Shown here: positions 29,355 through 39,326 of the stretch, one piece after another
Numbering within the stretch: position 1 is the first letter of the stretch
Layout: every line of letters starts with the position of its first letter
NCBI RefSeq assembly: GCF_008629685.1
Contig: NZ_VWSF01000033.1
Location: 1-52,052, forward strand
From: Adhaeribacter rhizoryzae
GTDB taxonomy: Bacteria; Bacteroidota; Bacteroidia; Cytophagales; Hymenobacteraceae
Direction: 5' to 3'
Length of the DNA stretch: 52,052 bases
The notes under the pieces: generated by a model
Told to the model about the DNA's origin: nothing
Databases searched by the model: none
The model's input: only the letters and a program-made list of their open reading frames with translations
Program-made: the position numbers and the translations under genes

Positions 29355-30104
29355 ATGGCGCCAAAAATAGTATCTGTGATTAACCAAAAAGGTGGCACAG
29401 GGAAAACTACTACCACAATAAATTTAGGAAGTGCCTTAAGTAAAACCGGGAAAAAAATATTACTGATAGACCTCGATCCGCAGGCCAATCTTTCTTATTC
29501 GTTAGGAGTGGAAGAACCGCAGGGTACCCTGGCCGATGTTTTTAGCGGCAGTAAAAGTTTAAACCAAATAATACTTAAACAAGAAAACTTAAGCATTGCC
29601 CCGGGTTCTAATGAGTTGGTAGATATTGAAATATCTTTGGTTACCCAGCCGCAACGCGAAAGTTTTCTGAAAAATATATTAGCCGAGGCCAAAGGCTATG
29701 ATTTTATTTTAATAGATTGCCCGCCTTCGTTGTCGCTGCTGACGGTAAATGCATTGGCAGCTTCCGACGAAGTGTTAATTCCATTGCAAATGGAAGTATT
29801 AACCTTGCAGGGGTTAAGCCAGATTTTAAATACGGTTAAGCAAGTACAATCGGCTTTTAACCCTAAATTAAAGGTAAAGGGCATCGTGGTGGTTATGTTC
29901 GATAAAAGACGAAAACTTAGTTCGGAAATTCAGGAATATTTAGAGCAAAATATTGCCGAAAGAATATTTAAAACCCGGATTCGTCTGAACGTGAAGTTGG
30001 CCGAAGCGCCTTCGTTTGGCAAAAGCGTGCTGGACTATGACCCGGGTTCTTACGGCGCCCAGGATTACCAGGCACTGGCTGCCGAATTTTTAAATACAAA
30101 ATAA
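29355..30104 (+). CDS. ParA-family partition ATPase of a chemosensory operon
   Basis: 249 residues, a small ParA/Soj ATPase without a DNA-binding HTH extension. The deviant Walker A KGGTGKTTTT with both signature lysines lies at about 13-20, Walker A' is ILLIDLDPQANLSYSLG, and Walker B is FILIDCPPSLSLLTVNAL. Such ATPases bind DNA nonspecifically when ATP-loaded and position plasmids, chromosomes or protein clusters. No ParB or parS-like sequence is next to it. It is followed after 80 bp by a soluble receptor and che genes, so a role in distributing chemosensory clusters, like PpfA of Rhodobacter, is the best reading. Chromosome partition remains possible but less likely in this context. Confidence 0.92.
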   Translation: MAPKIVSVINQKGGTGKTTTTINLGSALSKTGKKILLIDLDPQANLSYSLGVEEPQGTLADVFSGSKSLNQIILKQENLSIAPGSNELVDIEISLVTQPQRESFLKNILAEAKGYDFILIDCPPSLSLLTVNALAASDEVLIPLQMEVLTLQGLSQILNTVKQVQSAFNPKLKVKGIVVVMFDKRRKLSSEIQEYLEQNIAERIFKTRIRLNVKLAEAPSFGKSVLDYDPGSYGAQDYQALAAEFLNTK

Positions 30105-30184: not shown

Positions 30185-33100
30185 ATGGCTTTAGGAAAAA
30201 ACATGAAGTTGAATAAAGATAAACTGATTGCAAAATCGGAACAAGAAGAAACAGCACCGATGCAACCAGCGGAGAAGAACCTTACCAACGAGGCAACTGC
30301 TCCACCCGAGGCGCCGGTAACAGCTTCTAATCCGGAAGCAACCCCCAAACGCGCCGGAACCCGGGCCAAAGCTATACCGGCCGCTATAGCCACGGTAGCC
30401 GAACCGCCTGCCGATAAAAATGGTAAAATCAAGCTTCCGGCAGAAAACCCTGTGAACGGTGCTAATGGAAAAAACGGCTTTAAAGGCTTGGACGATGAAT
30501 ATGTAAACGAACAGCTTAACCGGGTATTATTTGCATTAGATGCCTTTAAAAAAGGCGATGTTTCAGTTAGGTTAACCAAGCAGCACAATGATATTTTTGC
30601 CGACATTGCCGAAGCCTATAACTCTATGGTAGAGATGATTGGGGGTGTAGGTGGCGAAGTATCGCGGATTTCGAAAGTTGCCGGAGTAGAAGGTAACCTG
30701 AAAGCCCGGGCCTCGGCCGAAAACGCGGCCGGCTTCTGGAAAGACATGATCAATAATATTAATGGTCTGGTCGATTCCATTGCGGTTCCGGTTTTAGAGG
30801 TAGGTAAGGTATTAAAGAATATTTCGCGGGGTAACCTCGACGAAAGCTTCCAGATTCCGGTATCCGGTGATTTTAAAGTAATGGCCGAAACCATTAACCG
30901 CACCATTGATAACCTGAATATTTTTGCCGGTGAAGTAACTCGGGTGGCCTTGGAAGTAGGCTCGGAAGGTAAATTAGGTGGCCAGGCGGGTGTGCCTAAC
31001 GTAGCGGGTGTTTGGAAAGAACTCACCGACAACGTAAACACCATGGCCAGTAACCTGACTTTACAAGTTAGGGATATTGCCAACGTAGCCACCGCCGTTG
31101 CCCGCGGCGATTTAAGCCAGAAAATTACGGTAGATGTAAAAGGCGAAATGCTTTTATTAAAAGAGAACATCAACCAAATGGTGGACTCTTTAAATATTTT
31201 TGGCGATGAAGTTACGCGGGTAGCCCGCGAAGTAGGTTCCGAGGGTAAACTGGGTGGCCAGGCCAATGTGCCCAACGTGGGTGGTACCTGGAAAGTGCTG
31301 ACCGACAACGTAAACACCATGGCCAGCAACTTAACCTTACAAATGCGCGATATTGCCAACGTGGCTACTGCGGTAGCCAAAGGTGATTTGCGGCAAAAAA
31401 TTACGGTTAATGTAAAAGGCGAATTCCTGGAGTTAAAGGAAAATATTAACCAAATGGTTGATTCGCTTAACGTATTTGCCGGAGAGGTAACCCGTGTGGC
31501 TTTAGAAGTAGGAACGGAAGGTAAACTGGGCGGCCAGGCTAAAGTGCCCAATGTAGCCGGGGTTTGGAAAGACCTGACGGAAAATGTGAACGCCATGGCG
31601 GGTAACTTAACCAGCCAGGTGCGCGATATTGCCAATGTTGCCACCGCCGTTGCCCGCGGCGACTTAAGCCAGAAAATTACGGTGGATGTACGGGGCGAAT
31701 TATTGCAATTAAAAGAGAACATCAACCAAATGGTGGACTCTTTGAATATTTTTGGACGGGAAGTTATTCGGGTAGCCCTGGAAGTGGGTGCCGAAGGAAT
31801 ATTAGGCGGCCAGGCCAAAGTGCCGAACGTGGCCGGCGTGTGGAAGGATTTAACGGATAACGTTAATTTTATGGCGGGTAACTTAACCAGCCAGGTACGC
31901 GATATTGCCAACGTAGCTACCGCCGTGGCAAAAGGCGATCTAAGTCAGAAAATGACCGTTAATGTAAAAGGCGAAATCCTGGAACTCAAAAATATTCTGA
32001 ACCAGATGGTAGACTCGCTGAACGTGTTTGCCGGTGAGGTTACGCGGGTGGCTTTAGAAGTAGGAACCGAAGGTAAACTGGGCGGGCAAGCCGAAGTGCC
32101 GAATGTAGCTGGCGTTTGGAAAGAACTTACGAATAATGTAAACGCCATGGCGGGTAACTTAACCAGCCAGGTGCGCGATATTGCCAATGTAGCCACCGCC
32201 GTTGCCCGCGGCGACTTAAGCCAGAAAATTACGGTGGATGTACGCGGCGAATTATTGCAACTAAAAGAGAACATCAACCAAATGGTGGACTCTTTGAATA
32301 TTTTCGGCGATGAAGTTACGCGGGTAGCCCGCGAAGTAGGTTCCGAAGGTAAACTGGGTGGCCAGGCCAATGTGCCCAACGTGGGTGGTACCTGGAAAGT
32401 GCTGACCGACAATGTAAACACCATGGCCAGCAATTTAACCTTGCAGGTGCGCGATATTGCCACCGTAGCTACTGCCGTTGCCAAAGGTGATTTAAGTAAA
32501 AAAATTACGGTAGATGTACGGGGCGAAATGCTGCTGTTAAAAGAGTACATTAACCAAATGGTGGACTCCTTAAATATTTTCACCAATGAGGTAACCCGCG
32601 TAGCGCTGGAAGTAGGCTCGGAAGGTAAATTGGGTGGCCAGGCGGGTGTGCCTAACGTAGCGGGGGTTTGGAAAGAACTTACCGAGAACGTAAACACCAT
32701 GGCCAGTAACTTAACCAGCCAGGTACGCGATATTGCCAATGTTGCTACGGCCGTTGCCCGCGGCGATTTGAGCCAGAAAATTACCGTTGATGTAAAAGGC
32801 GAACTCTTGCAGTTGAAGGACAACATCAACCAAATGGTAAACTCCCTGAATATTTTCGCCGACGAAGTTACCCGGGTATCCCGTGAGGTAGGTTCCGAAG
32901 GTAAACTGGGCGGCCAAGCCAATGTACCTAATGTAGGCGGGGTTTGGAAAGAGCTTACCAATAATGTTAATACCATGGCTACCAACTTAACCAGTCAGGT
33001 ACGCGATATTGCCAACGTAGCCACGGCCGTGGCCCGCGGCGATTTGAGCCAGAAAATGACGGTAGATGTTAAAGGCGAAATTCTGGAACTCAAAAATATT

Positions 33101-34900
33101 CTGAACCAGATGGTAGACTCGCTGAACGTATTTGCCGGTGAGGTTACGCGGGTAGCCCAGGAAGTAGGTTCCGAAGGTAAGCTGGGTGGACAAGCTGCCG
33201 TGCCAAACGTAGGTGGGGTTTGGAAACAGCTTACCGATAACGTAAACCGGATGGCGACCAACCTAACGGTTCAGGTGCGGGGCATTGTAAAAGTAGTAAC
33301 GGCGGTATCGAAAGGTGACCTTACCCAAAAGCTGACGCTCGAAACCAAAGGCGAAATGGCTGATTTGGCCGAAACTATTAATAACATGGTGGATGACCTG
33401 AACCGTTTAGCCGGTGAAGTAAGCCGGGTAGCCAGAGTGGCTGGGGTAGAAGGAAAACTTACCGAGCGCGCCACAGTACTGGGTGTAAGCGGAAGCTGGA
33501 AAGAATTAGTAGATACCCTCAACGACCTGCTAGAATCAATTGTATCGCCGGTACTCGAAGTATCGCGTATTGTACGCGCTATTTCCGAAGGTGATTTAAC
33601 CCAAAAAGTAGAAATTCATACGGCCGGCGATATACTGGCCATGGCCAACGCCGTTAACCTGGCGGTAGATAACCTGAACTCCCTTTTGGGCGAAATTAAC
33701 GACAGCTCTTTGGTTGTGGGCAGCTCTTCCGAAGAAATGGCGAATAAAGGTTTAGACATGAGCCGCGTAATGGTAGATGTGGCTTTATCGATGCAGCAAA
33801 TGGCAGAAGGTGCTGCTAACCAGGCCCTTAAAACCGACCAAGCGTTTAAGCTGATCGAGGAAATTATGAAAGCCACGAAAGAAACCGCCAACAAAGCCGA
33901 TGTGGTAAACCGGGCGGCCATCATGGGTGAAGAAACTTCCCAGTTAGGCTTAAAAACTGTGGCTGAAGTGGTGAAGAACATGGAAGAAATTTCGACGGCA
34001 GCGGCCCTGACAGCAAAAACCATTGAAGTACTAAGTACCCGTTCGCAGGAAATATCTAAATCGTTGGGCGTTATAACCGATATTGCTTCGCAAACCAACT
34101 TACTGGCCTTGAATGCCGCCATTGAAGCGGCCCGGGCCGGTGAAGCTGGTCGCGGTTTTGCCGTAGTAGCCGAAGAAATCCGGAAACTGGCGGAAGGCTC
34201 CCGTAAATCAGCCAATGAAATTGCTACGCTGGTAGACGATGTTAAAAAAGATACTTCATCGGCGGCGGCGGCGATCTCGACCATGGAAGGCCGGGTATTA
34301 AAAGGAAAAAATGCCACCTTCGAAGCTTCCGGCGCCTTTAAAAATATTGCCAATTCCACCGGCGAAACCTTGCGTTCTTCACAAGATATTTTAACTGCTA
34401 CCGAAGTACAAAAATCATCTATTTCGGATGTGGTGAAATACGTGGAAGAGGTGGTAGCTATTGCCGAACAAACGGCCAATGGTACCCAGCAGGTGGCAGG
34501 TACGGCCAAGCAATTATCCGGCTCGATGCAGGAACTTACCGCGTCTAGTCAGCAACTGAACGAAATTGCCGATGATTTACAAATTGCTATTTCGGCCTTT
34601 AAGTTAATTAACGGTAGCTATATACCGCACGGCCGCACTATTCGCCGCATGGGCTTCCCGGCCAATAGCCGCGATTATTTAGTTACTCCGCCGCGCATGC
34701 AGGAATTAAATAGAATTCCGGATGTAAGAAATTCAGGATTTAACAGCGCTCCCGACGATAGGTTTACCGGCAGTGGCAATTTTTCTAACGGGCGCTCGGG
34801 TGGGTTAAACACGGGTAATACCGGCGGCAGTAATTCATCCTTATCTGATGATGCTAAAAAATCGCCAGCCAAAAAAGGTTCTCCTAAATCTAAATCTTAA
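30185..34900 (+). CDS. Giant soluble poly-HAMP methyl-accepting chemoreceptor
   Basis: 1571 residues with no transmembrane segment and no recognisable sensor domain. Residues 1-105 are Ala/Pro/Lys/Glu-rich and probably disordered. From 107 the protein is an array of 92-residue units, each two HAMP domains: units at 107-198 and 199-290, eight nearly identical units at 291-1026, a divergent unit at 1027-1118 and a half unit to about 1165, in total about 23 HAMPs. Typical unit text is [19 protein letters not shown] and [19 protein letters not shown], the type known from Nik1-class histidine kinases. The signalling hairpin (about 1166-1476) has a canonical tip ([20 protein letters not shown], then [16 protein letters not shown]) for CheA/CheW. 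The tail (1477-1571) is disordered and ends [14 protein letters not shown], without a CheR-binding pentapeptide. Confidence 0.95.
31055..33262 (+). repeat. Eight 276-bp tandem units encoding double-HAMP modules
   Basis: Each unit encodes 92 residues and begins with an L-T-x-Q segment; the period of 276 bp was checked at successive GATATTGCCAACGT sites (31073, 31349) and at the boundary to the divergent ninth unit (33263). Units differ at few positions, and half units are shared in mosaic fashion: second half of unit 1 with unit 5, first half of unit 3 with unit 5, first half of unit 4 with unit 8. This suggests recombination between repeats and makes copy number a point to verify in the assembly. 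Confidence 0.92.
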
Positions 34901-34905
34901 AAAGA

Positions 34906-35424
34906 ATGGAACTGGAAGAACGGCGGGAAAAACGCGACCGGAAAATGGAACCCATGGTTCACCTGATAGTATTTAAGTTAGGTTCTGAAGAATACGGTAT
35001 CCGGATTGAGCAGGTAAAAGAAGTAACGGTTACGCCCGAAATTACCCGCATGCCCAAAACACCTAAGTTTATAAAAGGTATTGCCAATATTCGGGGCGAT
35101 ATTATAGCTATTATGGACCTGGAAGAACGGTTTAATGTGGCGCCCCCGGCCGATGTAAACAACCTGAATTACTACAAGAATACGTTTACACTGGCCCTGG
35201 AGGCCAGCGATTATACCATGGGTTTAATTGTGCGCGAAATGCCCCAATCCTTAACCATTCCGGTATCGCAGATAGATAAAACGCCTGCTTTTATACAGGA
35301 TTTAAATATTAACGAAAACTTTATTGAGGGAATTGGTAAAATAAATGGCCGATTAATAATTGTGCTGGATATTTTACGTATTCTCACCAGCGATGAAGTA
35401 CAACAATTAAAAATGTCTTCCTGA
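34906..35424 (+). CDS. cheW: CheW coupling protein
   Basis: 172 residues; starts 5 bp after the receptor stop. After a short charged N-terminus (MELEERREKRDRK) comes a single CheW domain: HLIVFKLGSEEYGIRIEQVKEV, ITRMPKTPKFIKGIANIRGDIIAIMDLEERF (the conserved P-x-x-x-x-G-x-x-N-x-R-G strand) and a C-terminal GIGKINGRLIIVLDILRIL. It links the receptor tip to CheA in the array. Only one cheW is present. Confidence 0.97.
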   Translation: MELEERREKRDRKMEPMVHLIVFKLGSEEYGIRIEQVKEVTVTPEITRMPKTPKFIKGIANIRGDIIAIMDLEERFNVAPPADVNNLNYYKNTFTLALEASDYTMGLIVREMPQSLTIPVSQIDKTPAFIQDLNINENFIEGIGKINGRLIIVLDILRILTSDEVQQLKMSS

Positions 35425-35463: not shown

Positions 35464-35829
35464 ATGAAAAAAAGAATATTAATCGTTGATGATTCCTTTT
35501 ACATGCGCACCATGCTCAAAAATATGCTCACGGACGCAGGTTACGAGGTAGTAGGCGAAGCGCCTAACGGGCAAACCGCTTTGCAAATGGCCAAAGAAAC
35601 CAACCCGGATTTAATAACCCTAGATGTTATTTTACCGGATAATACGGGTTTAGATGTGTTAAAAGGCATCCGGAAAGACCAACCCGATATGAAAGTGGTT
35701 ATTGTGAGTGCTGTGGGGCAGGAAGTAATTGTAACCGAAGCCATAGAAAACGGTGCGCTGGCTTATATTGTAAAGCCTTTTTCTGAAGATAAAGTGTTGG
35801 AAGTAGTTGGCAACGCGCTGAAAGACTAA
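35464..35829 (+). CDS. cheY: CheY-like single-domain response regulator
   Basis: 121 residues, a stand-alone receiver. Acidic pair D9-D10 (LIVDDSFYMR), phospho-acceptor D54 (LITLDVILPD), the Ser in VIVSAVG, and the Lys in IVKPF near residue 106 are all present. It is presumably phosphorylated by the CheA of this operon. The output partner is unknown: no flagellar or pilus gene is in the window, and relatives of this organism move by gliding or pili, or not at all. Confidence 0.95.
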   Translation: MKKRILIVDDSFYMRTMLKNMLTDAGYEVVGEAPNGQTALQMAKETNPDLITLDVILPDNTGLDVLKGIRKDQPDMKVVIVSAVGQEVIVTEAIENGALAYIVKPFSEDKVLEVVGNALKD

Positions 35830-35940
35830 AACCTGGGTTAAGCGGTTTTTATTTAACTGATTCAGGAAGTAAGCGCATTTGGGAGTGGGGTTATCAAGAA
35901 AATAAAAATAATAATTGCGGATTTCTCGGGTTTTTCGCGT

Positions 35941-36978
35941 TTGGTATTAACCAATATTTTAAACGCCGAAGTAGACCTGGAGGTGCTGGATACAGCCGAA
36001 AATGGCGATGATTTGCTCCGGAAATTGAAAGCCACAAGGCCCGATTTGGTAATTGCCGATTACGATTTGCCGAAGAACAGCCGTTTATTTTGTTTCAGGC
36101 GCATTAAGTTGGAGTACCAGATACCCATTTTGTTGCTGGTTAGCCGCGACAACGTGGCCGAGGATTTTATATTTAAAGCCATGCAGGTAGGCGTTTACGA
36201 TTACGTAAAAATTTCGACGCATACCATGTTGCCGCAGCTCCGGCAGATTCAGGAAGAAATTGTGCTGAAGGTTAGATCGGTAATGGAAATTAAAAATTAT
36301 CAGCAGGCATTGGTTAAACCAACTCACCTGGCTCATAATTTACGTTTTCGGGCCCATCGTTTACCAACAAAGCAATTACAGCGGCAGCCGCAGTCTGTTG
36401 TTGTATTAGGGGCTTCAACCGGCGGCGCCAAAGCCATTGAATATATTTTAAGCCGGATTAAACCCGACTTAAAAACAGTAGTGTTGGTAGCCTTGCATTT
36501 GCCGGTTAGGTTTACGGGCATTTTTACCGCGCGCTTACAAAGTTTAACCAGTTTAAAAGTACTGGAAGGTAAAGCCGGTATGCGTTTAGAAGCCGGTAAA
36601 GTAATTATTGCTCCCGGAAATAAAAATATGGTAGTTAACCAGCATTTAGGCCAGCATCACGATTTTCGGATTAATTTTTCCGATGAACCCGCCGATGAAT
36701 TTGATTGTCCGTCAGTGGATATTCTGATGCGTTCGGTAGCTGAACTGGCCGGGCCGTTTACGTTGGGGGTAATACTCACCGGCATGGGAAAAGACGGCAC
36801 CACGGGCACGCAGGCTATTTTACAAAATGGCGGCGATACCGTGGCCCAGGACGAAGCTTCGTCGGCTATTTTTGGAATGGCCAAATCAGCAATTGAAAAC
36901 GGAAATATTAAAAAAATATTAAGCTTAACCCAAATACCAGATTACATTAACCGGTTTGCCGAGTACCATCAGATTTAG
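35941..36978 (+). CDS. cheB: CheB-type methylesterase with degenerate receiver
   Basis: 345 residues from the first conventional start, TTG 35941. The receiver probably begins earlier: bases 35893-35940 in the same frame encode IKKIKIIIADFSGFSR, the missing first strand and helix, but no ATG, GTG or TTG precedes them before the stop at 35854. The receiver keeps the phospho-acceptor Asp (LVIADYDLP, D40) and a late Lys (YDYVKIS), but one of the two acidic-pair Asps is Ala. The C-terminal esterase is intact: VLGASTGG (Ser about 159), ALHLPVRFTGIF (His about 186) and GVILTGMGKDGTTG (Asp). It would demethylate or deamidate the receptor, yet no CheR is encoded here. Confidence 0.9.
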   Translation: MVLTNILNAEVDLEVLDTAENGDDLLRKLKATRPDLVIADYDLPKNSRLFCFRRIKLEYQIPILLLVSRDNVAEDFIFKAMQVGVYDYVKISTHTMLPQLRQIQEEIVLKVRSVMEIKNYQQALVKPTHLAHNLRFRAHRLPTKQLQRQPQSVVVLGASTGGAKAIEYILSRIKPDLKTVVLVALHLPVRFTGIFTARLQSLTSLKVLEGKAGMRLEAGKVIIAPGNKNMVVNQHLGQHHDFRINFSDEPADEFDCPSVDILMRSVAELAGPFTLGVILTGMGKDGTTGTQAILQNGGDTVAQDEASSAIFGMAKSAIENGNIKKILSLTQIPDYINRFAEYHQI

Positions 36979-36996: not shown

Positions 36997-38649
36997 ATGA
37001 AATCGAGAGAACAAGAATACAAGGAAATATTTATTGGCGAAGCGCTGGAATATTACGATGCCCTAAACCGGCACATCAGCGATCTGGAGAAAAATCCGGA
37101 AAACGAAACGCTGCTAGCCGAAATATTTCGCTTGCTTCATAACCTGAAAGCGAATGCGAAAGCAATTGGTTACCTCCCGATTGCCGATTTATCGCATAAA
37201 CTCGAAACCGCTTTTGAGCTGATCCGGAATAAAAAAATTGCTTTTGCCGATGAAACCGTAACCGTATTATTTGACGGCATTGATTTGTTAGGCGAACTTA
37301 TTCATAACCTGGACCGGGAAGGTTATCAACCCCAGGACGAACCCATCATCCGTAACCTGGATCTGGTAGTAGAATCGGCGGATAAAGGCAGTAAACCCAG
37401 CGAACGCGCCGTTGAAGTGGCCAAAGGTCCCAAATACCTGAATGCCAAAAATATTCAGTTATCCGACCTGATTTATATTCAGATTAAAAAACTGGATCAT
37501 TTATTAAACCTGGTGGGCGAATTAATTATTGACCGAGACCGGATTATTTCTATTAGTAAAGAACTGGACCATCCGGATTTGGCTACGGTTAGTTCGCATT
37601 TATACCGGCTTACCGAAGATTTGCAATTTAGCGTAATGGATGCGCGGCTGGTAACCATTGGTTCTTTGTTTAACAAATTTCCCAGGATTGCGCGCGACAT
37701 TGCCGTTGCCGAAAAAAAGGAAATTCATTTGGATATAAGCGGCCAGGACATTCAGATTGACCGGAATATATTGCAGATAATTACCGATTCGCTGCTGCAC
37801 ATTATGCGTAATGCCATTTCGCACGGCATAGAACCGGCCGAAACCAGGGTAGCGGCTGGTAAACCAGCCGTAGGTAATATTAAGTTATCGGCGCAAAGCG
37901 ATCGCGAGCTGGTACAGATAAGGTTAAGCGACGATGGCAAAGGCATTGATTTAGACGATGTGCGCCGCGGCATTGTGCAGAAAGGGTTTTTACCGGCCGA
38001 AGCTGCTAACGAACTGCGCGATTCGGAGGCGTTATCGTATATTTTTGAACCGGGCTTTTCGCTGGCCAAGCAAATTACCGAAGTTTCGGGGCGGGGAGTT
38101 GGGCTAGATGTTGTAAAAAATGCCATTGACAGCATTGGCGGCCGCATTCGGATTGATTCGGAAAAAGGCAAAGGCACTACGTTTACTTTGCATTTGCCCA
38201 CTTCTATTGCGGTAAAAGGCGCTTTGTTGTTTGAGGTAGATAATAGTTTTTACGCCATTCCGCTGATGCATACCGATTCGGTGGTGGCTTTGGATAAAGA
38301 CGAACTACACGAAATTGGCGGCTTGCTGGTGGCCGATATTAAAAACGAAACCATAACGGTAATATCGTTAAATCAGTTTTTAACAGCCAGCGAGGCCACC
38401 ATGAACCTGGGCAGCAAAGCAAAACTGCAGGGCGTGGTCCAGAATATTATTATTGTTACTTATAACAACCGTAAACTGGGTCTCATTGTCGATAAATTAT
38501 ACCGGCAACAAGATATTGTAATTAAACCCCTGAATAAACCGGTTGATAGTATTGAAATTTACGGTGGGGTAACCTTATTGGGCTCCGGCAAAGTTTGTTT
38601 AGTGTTGGATGTACCGGCACTCACTCGTTATTTTTTAACTAAAAAGTAA
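36997..38649 (+). CDS. cheA: CheA histidine kinase lacking a P2 domain
   Basis: 550 residues; starts 18 bp after cheB. The P1/Hpt domain (1 to about 115) has the phospho-acceptor H48 in FRLLHNLKANAKAIGY. A short linker of about 40 residues stands in place of P2. The P3 dimerisation helices (about 157-215) have KLDHLLNLVGELIIDRDRI. The P4 kinase domain (about 225-395) has HIMRNAISHGIE (N box), LSDDGKGI (G1), GRGVGLDVVK (G2) and GKGTTFTLHLPTSIA. P5, CheW-like, runs from about 400 to the end. It is a functional-looking soluble kinase that would dock with CheW and the receptor. Without P2 it would phosphorylate CheY and CheB from P1 directly. Confidence 0.96.
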   Translation: MKSREQEYKEIFIGEALEYYDALNRHISDLEKNPENETLLAEIFRLLHNLKANAKAIGYLPIADLSHKLETAFELIRNKKIAFADETVTVLFDGIDLLGELIHNLDREGYQPQDEPIIRNLDLVVESADKGSKPSERAVEVAKGPKYLNAKNIQLSDLIYIQIKKLDHLLNLVGELIIDRDRIISISKELDHPDLATVSSHLYRLTEDLQFSVMDARLVTIGSLFNKFPRIARDIAVAEKKEIHLDISGQDIQIDRNILQIITDSLLHIMRNAISHGIEPAETRVAAGKPAVGNIKLSAQSDRELVQIRLSDDGKGIDLDDVRRGIVQKGFLPAEAANELRDSEALSYIFEPGFSLAKQITEVSGRGVGLDVVKNAIDSIGGRIRIDSEKGKGTTFTLHLPTSIAVKGALLFEVDNSFYAIPLMHTDSVVALDKDELHEIGGLLVADIKNETITVISLNQFLTASEATMNLGSKAKLQGVVQNIIIVTYNNRKLGLIVDKLYRQQDIVIKPLNKPVDSIEIYGGVTLLGSGKVCLVLDVPALTRYFLTKK

Positions 38650-38693: not shown

Positions 38694-39326
38694 ATGGAAC
38701 TTAGAATAAGTGAACTGGAAAAAGACATTATTAAGGAAATCCTGAATATAGGGTTGGCGCGGGCGGCAGATTCTTTTGCATCCATCTCCCGCGACCGGGT
38801 TTTGCTGAAGGTGCCCAACATGGAGCTTATTAGCGCCAAAGAAGTAATAGATACTTTGGAACAGTTCGAACAAAATCACGAGATTATTCAATCAGATATT
38901 AAAGGTGATTTTAACGGCACCACCCTGATGAATTTTTCCCGGTTACATATTCAAAAGCTTTCCGAGGTTTGTTTAAACATGAAGCCTCCCTTTCCGGAAG
39001 AACTGAACGACATGCAGGAATCGTTGCTGCTGGAAATCAGTAATATTATTACGGGGGCTTTTGTAACGCAATTAGCCAATATTTTAAAAGCCAATATTTA
39101 CGGTTCGCCGCCGGTACATCCCGAAAAAGGTAACCTGGGCAGCTCGCTGAATCATATTTTTGACAGCCATCCTTTTTTTCAGCCCATTATTTTTACGGTA
39201 ATTACGCATTTCACCAATTTTGAAGAAATGGTAGAATTGCCGTTGTTCCTGTTCTTCGATACCGAAACTTTTACCAAAATTCTGGAAATTATTCGGTCCT
39301 ATAACTTTTATGAACTTAACAATTAG
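38694..39326 (+). CDS. cheC: CheC/CheX-type CheY-P phosphatase
   Basis: 210 residues. Two copies of the CheC active-site pattern E-x-x-N are present: EILNIGLARAADSFASIS (E15, N18) and EISNIITGAFVTQLANIL (E114, N117), so both phosphatase half sites look active. This is the CheC layout rather than the single-site CheX. It is probably the signal-termination enzyme of this pathway. CheD, the usual CheC partner, is not encoded here. It is the last gene of the operon; 385 bp of spacer follows. Confidence 0.9.
   Translation: MELRISELEKDIIKEILNIGLARAADSFASISRDRVLLKVPNMELISAKEVIDTLEQFEQNHEIIQSDIKGDFNGTTLMNFSRLHIQKLSEVCLNMKPPFPEELNDMQESLLLEISNIITGAFVTQLANILKANIYGSPPVHPEKGNLGSSLNHIFDSHPFFQPIIFTVITHFTNFEEMVELPLFLFFDTETFTKILEIIRSYNFYELNN

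Follow-up and report, generated by a model that had tools for sequence, protein, structure and literature searches.

What can a chemoreceptor respond to, and how is it held in the cell, when it carries neither a recognisable sensor domain nor a membrane segment? The question is raised by a 52,052-nucleotide stretch from Adhaeribacter rhizoryzae, family Hymenobacteraceae (contig NZ_VWSF01000033.1, positions 1 to 52,052; hereafter the window), in which a gene for a receptor built of consecutive HAMP domains lies in a che operon behind a gene for a ParA-type ATPase. The reading that we favour, with moderate confidence and by analogy with known systems, is that this protein would act as the only receptor in a chemosensory array that lies in the cytoplasm and is placed on the nucleoid by ParA, and that its HAMP rod would serve as a stalk or relay of adjustable length.

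Residues 107-1118 of the receptor consist of eleven contiguous 92-residue units without gaps, each formed by a 47-residue and a 45-residue HAMP, and one extra 47-residue HAMP (residues 1119-1165) brings the total to 23 (107-1165). This count is based on the repeat register and agrees with the first-pass annotation, which had proposed about 23 from the letters of the DNA; Pfam (HAMP_2 in 11 stretches, E 1.5e-105; HAMP in 10 stretches, E 4.8e-102; both far above the cut-off) and an alignment with PDB chain 9trk served as support. In the receptor gene, TRF reported a single array with a period of 276 bp and 8.5 copies. The rod matched 9trk, which is named only 'histidine kinase,Gcn4p', with E 1e-71, which bears out the histidine-kinase-like character ascribed earlier to the HAMP sequence, the Nik1 label itself aside. 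The AlphaFold model of three units was of low confidence (pLDDT 41, for a single chain of an expected dimer), gave no Foldseek match at E<=0.001 and was HAMP-like only in its secondary structure, with helices of ~34 residues and connectors of ~11-14. The signalling part is a standard chemoreceptor hairpin, as had been described: MCPsignal (PF00015) was detected with E 1e-39 (136.5 bits against a cut-off of 34.6), the conserved tip is present, and the arms measure 22.1 and 22.0 heptads. Strict methylation-site-like matches numbered one in the window receptor (residue 1445) and two in each of six orthologues.

The Pfam scan of the receptor revealed no PAS or other sensor domain, and the hydropathy maximum (19-residue window) was 1.35. 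Across 74 arrays, the window receptor included, no membrane segment was found at hydropathy >1.6, mechanical upstream starts having been shifted to the likely start beforehand; a membrane tether was rejected on this basis, and the earlier statement that the protein has no sensor or membrane region holds. Among the orthologues, too, none was seen to carry a membrane sensor ahead of its rod. The linker that precedes the rod (residues 16-106) varies in length and sequence among orthologues, and the N-terminal region has a net charge of +1 (-4 to +7 across the 74 arrays). No second copy of the rod was found elsewhere in the A. rhizoryzae genome, and its borrowing from another protein of this genome was rejected for that reason.

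The MCPsignal search returned one match in the A. rhizoryzae genome, and all 120 Hymenobacteraceae genomes, this one counted among them, likewise have exactly one, 8 of the 120 frames being under 1,100 residues. Any MCP at all was present in 105 of 291 genomes of the order, and a hairpin this close (E<=1e-60) in 4 of 395 genomes of the phylum sample, all of them Hymenobacteraceae. The HAMP-rod receptor also occurs in two genomes outside those four matches, namely G340 (L129:7643-12577, family f19) and G240 (L136, family f15), the frame of L136 being without the N-terminal cap. In the hairpin tree, all HAMP-rod receptors, L129 and L136 included, formed one clade, with the other 18 receptors apart. 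Since L129 and L136 group as a pair (89/88) inside Hymenobacteraceae, the tree suggests that they acquired the receptor by horizontal transfer.

The analysis of relatives was performed on the window and the best 80 of 179 confirmed loci (81 rows), and HAMP numbers were derived from the distance between HAMP1 and the hairpin tip; counting with A/B profiles was dropped, as these cross-match and overcount. The rod could be measured in 76 of the 81 rows, four loci (L057, L067, L077, L078) being cut at contig ends and one (L011) having a split frame. In all 76 Hymenobacteraceae arrays, any difference in rod length was an exact multiple of 92 residues, with 19 HAMPs in 2 arrays, 21 in 44, 23 in 18, 25 in 3, 27 in 1, 29 in 7 and 31 in 1, all of them odd numbers; L129, with 25 HAMPs, keeps the exact 92-residue register in another family. 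The register appears constrained, because in these proteins the length of the tails is free to vary. However, the constantly odd number is no proof of selection, because recombination between 276-bp repeats yields whole-unit steps, and as a proof of selection for polarity it was rejected, the DNA repeat unit being a double HAMP. The 2010 HAMP survey of Dunin-Horkawicz and Lupas reportedly contains arrays of up to ~31 HAMPs, and no length record is therefore claimed. The contention of the first-pass annotation that poly-HAMP stretches elsewhere have far fewer modules is not supported: close relatives have 19-31 HAMPs, and extended poly-HAMP regions are described for the myxobacterial kinases AskA, AskB and Amb07 in the cited part of PMC7643160, which gives no HAMP numbers for them.

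The units were compared by position between the window receptor and 16 other 23-HAMP proteins, L002 being excluded as too close. Units 1-2 and the last full unit best matched their own position in 16/16 orthologues, with 91-94% identity at the same position for the N-terminal cap units, whereas most middle units best matched a different position across species, unit 4 being the least clear (own place in 6/16). Within the window receptor, the other middle units are 77-96% identical to unit 3. The rod is thus made of conserved caps around a homogenised middle, whose units evolve in concert. The nearest named relative among the matches listed was Adhaeribacter aerolatus, with 93% identity in the best segment. 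In L011:10001-14551 (Pontibacter harenae), the receptor frame breaks after 1,197 residues, which suggests a frameshift or an assembly error.

The ParA gene ends 80 bp upstream of the receptor, and its relatives in PDB are ParA/Soj proteins. In the ParA tree, it belongs to a 17-row clade (100/99) set apart from the chromosomal Soj and other ParAs (hereafter the che clade). The receptor itself starts with a 15-residue peptide, consensus MALGKN(L/M)K(L/M)(S/N)K(D/E)KLI, that opens 36 receptors; 11 of its 15 positions are invariant in 36/36, and its mean entropy is 0.15 bits, compared with 2.54 bits over residues 16-60. In 35 of the 81 loci, the peptide is accompanied by ParA within 600 bp; L011, the first piece of which carries the peptide with ParA upstream, makes 36. 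Both are missing in 41/81 loci, all of Hymenobacter or Solirubrum, and the remaining 4/81 are cut at contig ends. A ParA orthologue (E<1e-100) was present in 69 of the 120 Hymenobacteraceae genomes and in 0/51 genomes of genera g4 and g5, the best ParA matches of which lay near E 1e-53 with ~42% identity among the matches listed. Compared by eye, 66 of the 69 orthologues were on the receptor contig within ~6 kb, while in G001, G008 and G100 ParA and receptor were on different contigs.

The same association was analysed in 20 loci/genomes of other families. The receptors begin with ALGDN in 7, ALGGN in 1 and ALGKN in 1; che-clade ParA is present in 9/20 genomes, and 8 of these 9 have a receptor that begins with ALGxN, compared with 1/9 scored genomes without it (Fisher p = 0.003, for a motif chosen post hoc and genomes that are not independent). 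Two of the 11 genomes without che-clade ParA could not be scored, G350 (no hairpin by pattern) and G257 (cut start), and only part of the 11 entered the ParA tree, the others being judged by E-value and identity. Both states of peptide and ParA are found within each of the families f1, f4 and f18. In sister families, the receptors L118 (4633-10887), L119, L120 and L121 (7642-13308) have ~1,890-2,090 aa and all start with MALGDN, and ParA is adjacent in L118-L120. In the two that were scanned with Pfam, 13 (L118) and 10 (L121) PAS_3 stretches and one HAMP precede the MCP domain.

The reading preferred here would combine these features as follows. The peptide, on its flexible linker, would engage and probably activate DNA-bound ParA, comparable to TlpT and PpfA of Rhodobacter sphaeroides. 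The cited passages of PMC7993993 describe it as a common trait of ParA/MinD ATPases that partner proteins activate them through a short N-terminal extension with positive charge, and place the activating extension of PomX on an Ala/Pro-rich, likely unstructured domain; TlpT is counted among the extension-bearing proteins, with PpfA as its suggested partner (PMC7993993, PMC3964821, same limit). As a parallel dimer, the 23-HAMP rod would act both as a stalk and as a conformational relay linking the ParA anchor to the 22-heptad hairpin, the tip of which would assemble CheW and CheA, with CheC resetting CheY-P. The middle of the rod would act generically, as a spacer or relay whose length changes in steps of whole double-HAMP units, so that helical register and output polarity would be kept, and the end units would do the specific coupling. 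We estimate the rod at ~55-60 nm (23 HAMPs at ~2.5 nm, half of a 34-residue helix) and the hairpin at ~23 nm; for the double-layer array of V. cholerae, 35 nm between baseplates is given in the cited part of PMC3964821. The ruler of array spacing imagined in the first-pass annotation fits badly, since the rod lies along the receptor axis and could set the layer thickness only; between species, the rod differs by whole units. As a ruler within the plane it was rejected, because, according to the same passages, cytoplasmic and membrane arrays have a common 12 nm in-plane lattice (PMC3964821).

The genes of the operon follow the order ParA-MCP-CheW-CheY-CheB-CheA-CheC on a single strand, and the gaps after the first are 5, 39, 63, 18 and 44 bp when the CheB start is taken as 35893 (Table 1). 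No ATG/GTG/TTG codon precedes 35941 in CheB, yet the receiver homology starts near 35890, and CheB likely uses a non-ATG start; the acid pair of its receiver seems to be reduced to a single Asp. The CheC-type gene also matched NCBIfam CheC_Thtogales with E 1.3e-21, below the model cut-off. CheW, CheY, CheA and CheC are present in 81/81 loci, and CheB fell under the 100-bit threshold in 29/81, among them L029, which gave a match in another scan. CheR sequences in the A. rhizoryzae genome were confined to two long frames, on contig C18 (L152:1-3807) and contig C12 (1,355 residues); the first, which was the one scanned, is a CheB-CheR-PAS-HisKA fusion kinase. The flagellar protein FlhA (PF00771) was not found in this genome, the gene of the gliding and type 9 secretion (T9SS) motor, gldM, is present in it, and GldM occurs in 41/41 Hymenobacteraceae genomes. 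Gliding or secretion as the output is our guess, and no literature tying such che output to gliding or type 9 secretion, or HAMP receptors to Hymenobacter chemotaxis, was found in the part of the literature covered.

Table 1. Features of the receptor gene and the che operon in the window, in order of position.
Feature	Position	Strand	Details and basis
ParA-type ATPase, first operon gene	29355..30104	+	249 aa; Pfam AAA_31 E 4.1e-57
Receptor open reading frame, poly-HAMP chemoreceptor	30185-34900	+	1,571 aa
N-terminal 15-residue peptide, proposed ParA-binding/activating	30185..30229	+	conservation
Linker, Ala/Pro/Lys-rich, probably disordered	30230..30502	+	residues 16-106; sequence and composition
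N-terminal cap, units 1-2 (HAMPs 1-4), position-specific	30503..31054	+	orthologue identity; 9trk alignment
Rod middle, units 3-10 (HAMPs 5-20), homogenised	31055..33262	+	unit comparison
C-terminal cap, unit 11 and half unit (HAMPs 21-23), joins hairpin	33263..33679	+	unit 11 position-specific
Chemoreceptor signalling hairpin, 44H length	33680..34609	+	MCPsignal; tip Glu residue 1320
Basic C-terminal tail	34610..34897	+	net +9 in window receptor; +6 to +18 in 74/74 arrays
CheW	34906..35424	+	Pfam CheW E 4.5e-30
CheY, single receiver domain	35464..35829	+	Pfam Response_reg E 7e-30
CheB, start uncertain	35893..36978	+	Pfam scan
CheA kinase (Hpt, dimerisation, ATPase and CheW domains)	36997..38649	+	Pfam
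CheC-type CheY phosphatase	38694..39326	+	Pfam CheC E 1.3e-11

Several observations weigh against an array positioned by ParA. Hymenobacter lacks both ParA and peptide and yet retains the same rod and operon, and ParA is therefore not essential to rod function. The co-occurrence of peptide and ParA shows phylogenetic clustering, and the data had already been seen when the motif was defined. Outside the family, G193, G183, G136 and G158 have che-clade ParA away from the receptor, the receptor of G158 moreover starting with the variant MASGKEIKRDRLIP, and G354 is the genome that has ALGxN without che-clade ParA. G240 was scored as motif-less though its frame is without the N-terminal cap, and its omission keeps p at 0.003. 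Several branches of the ParA tree are long and were flagged. The Lys of LGKN is replaced elsewhere by Asp or Gly, and there is no strict ParB-like box; the chromosomal ParB of A. rhizoryzae starts with MSDNKNILKRKGGLGRGLGALI, loosely resembling LGKNL, and homology between the peptide and this start is not claimed because other families have LGDN or LGGN. Finally, the operon is without a CheR gene and 9/60 Hymenobacteraceae genomes have no CheR, which makes classical methylation adaptation doubtful.

The absence of any other sensor domain and the close relatedness of the rod to the histidine kinase 9trk would also agree with a rod that senses solute, crowding or small molecules by itself, shifts in HAMP state switching CheA in the style of Nik1-type (group III) kinases. 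In the cited parts of PMC7643160 and PMC11253588, group III kinases are poly-HAMP proteins without membrane segments that are tied to osmotic stress and fungicide response, and myxobacterial poly-HAMP kinases are implicated in ambruticin sensing. However, interchangeable middle units, in a number that depends on the species, are more spacer-like, and the sister receptors that start with MALGDN carry PAS arrays, the usual cytoplasmic sensors, in place of the rod. We therefore regard a sensing rod as unlikely.

Similarly doubtful is a direct attachment of the basic tails to the nucleoid, as in FrzCD, with ParA merely segregating the array or being dispensable. FrzCD binds DNA through its positively charged N-terminal tail, according to the passages cited from PMC5716589; here, the C-terminal tail is basic in every array, and a TRK[KR]-like patch (a pattern picked after inspection) stands just before HAMP1 in 39/41 receptors without ParA. 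The invariant peptide, however, follows ParA and not the charge of the tail. Basic low-complexity tails are common in general, which likewise counts against such a tether. The C-terminal tails are mostly longer where ParA and peptide are missing, in Hymenobacter (85-157 residues, n=41, vs 40-99, n=33), and this may perhaps represent a switch of tether. It was also observed that Hymenobacter receptors (e.g., L049, L079) have long Ala/Pro/Lys tails, many of them ending KSKAKAK-like.

A constitutively active or ligand-free receptor, whose array would be a scaffold or timer driven by the state of ParA or the nucleoid and not by a chemical signal, would account for the lack of a sensor domain, the single receptor per genome, the operon without CheR and the weak CheB matches. 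Yet the conservation of CheW, CheY, CheA and CheC at every locus points to a regulated output, and Hymenobacter has no che-type ParA, which makes this proposal quite improbable. Very improbable, in our opinion, is an array whose input would be ParA itself, with peptide-ParA engagement relayed down the rod to CheA; the system would then read nucleoid position or cell-cycle state rather than a chemical, and the sign of the signal would be fixed by the odd HAMP number.

The positioning by ParA that we prefer has its model in TlpT/PpfA, which likewise combine a soluble receptor with a ParA-like gene in the che operon, the receptor N-terminus being thought to act on ParA (PMC3964821, PMC10924463, cited in part). 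TlpT has only 567 aa, however, the passages cited do not mention a poly-HAMP rod in it, and R. sphaeroides has flagella and several receptors, unlike A. rhizoryzae with its single receptor and no PF00771 match. FrzCD of Myxococcus xanthus is also cytoplasmic, has an N-terminal tail that HAMPs connect to the hairpin, and belongs to an array scaffolded by the nucleoid; it differs in having two HAMPs against 19-31 and in binding DNA directly, and the cited part of PMC12077210 describes no partner ParA. The soluble poly-HAMP chemoreceptor Aer2 was the best NCBIfam match of the window receptor (306 of 1200 bits, far under the cut-off), but it combines a haem PAS domain with five HAMPs (PMC3570549, cited in part), and Pfam found no PAS in the window receptor. 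The 9trk kinase has the same double-HAMP sequence and a similarly diverged first unit, and the group III/Nik1-type hybrid histidine kinases AskA/AskB are poly-HAMP proteins with no membrane segment in the cited part of PMC7643160; both have a histidine kinase output, in contrast to the MCPsignal hairpin in a che operon found here. The poly-PAS receptors L118-L121 share the MALGDN peptide, the MCP hairpin and, in L118-L120, the adjacent ParA, but a PAS array and one HAMP replace the rod (in the two scanned), and their hairpins are 42-50% identical.

The separate parts, i.e., poly-HAMP, cytoplasmic MCP and ParA-linked array, are known; their combination, its extent and its conservation were not found among the matches listed, in the part of the literature covered. 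The anatomy given by the first-pass annotation stands; its contrast in module number is not supported, and its spacing ruler fits badly. The ParA gene, the invariant peptide and the sole-receptor status had escaped it. The Hymenobacteraceae as a whole seem to depend on a single rod receptor without a sensor for their only chemosensory system, and sister families offer the matching swap, a PAS array for the HAMP rod. The natural variants, with 19-31 HAMPs and with Hymenobacter lacking ParA and peptide, allow tests of whether a long chain of HAMPs serves as relay, as sensor or only as spacer, and bear as well on the relation of HAMP parity to output sign and on the positioning of membrane-free arrays.

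A second ParA of the A. rhizoryzae genome (L151:3288-4058, contig C29) shares 46% identity with the che ParA. In the same region, L151:4438-5373 encodes what we take to be an ArdC-type antirestriction protein-like product, and the region may be a mobile element.

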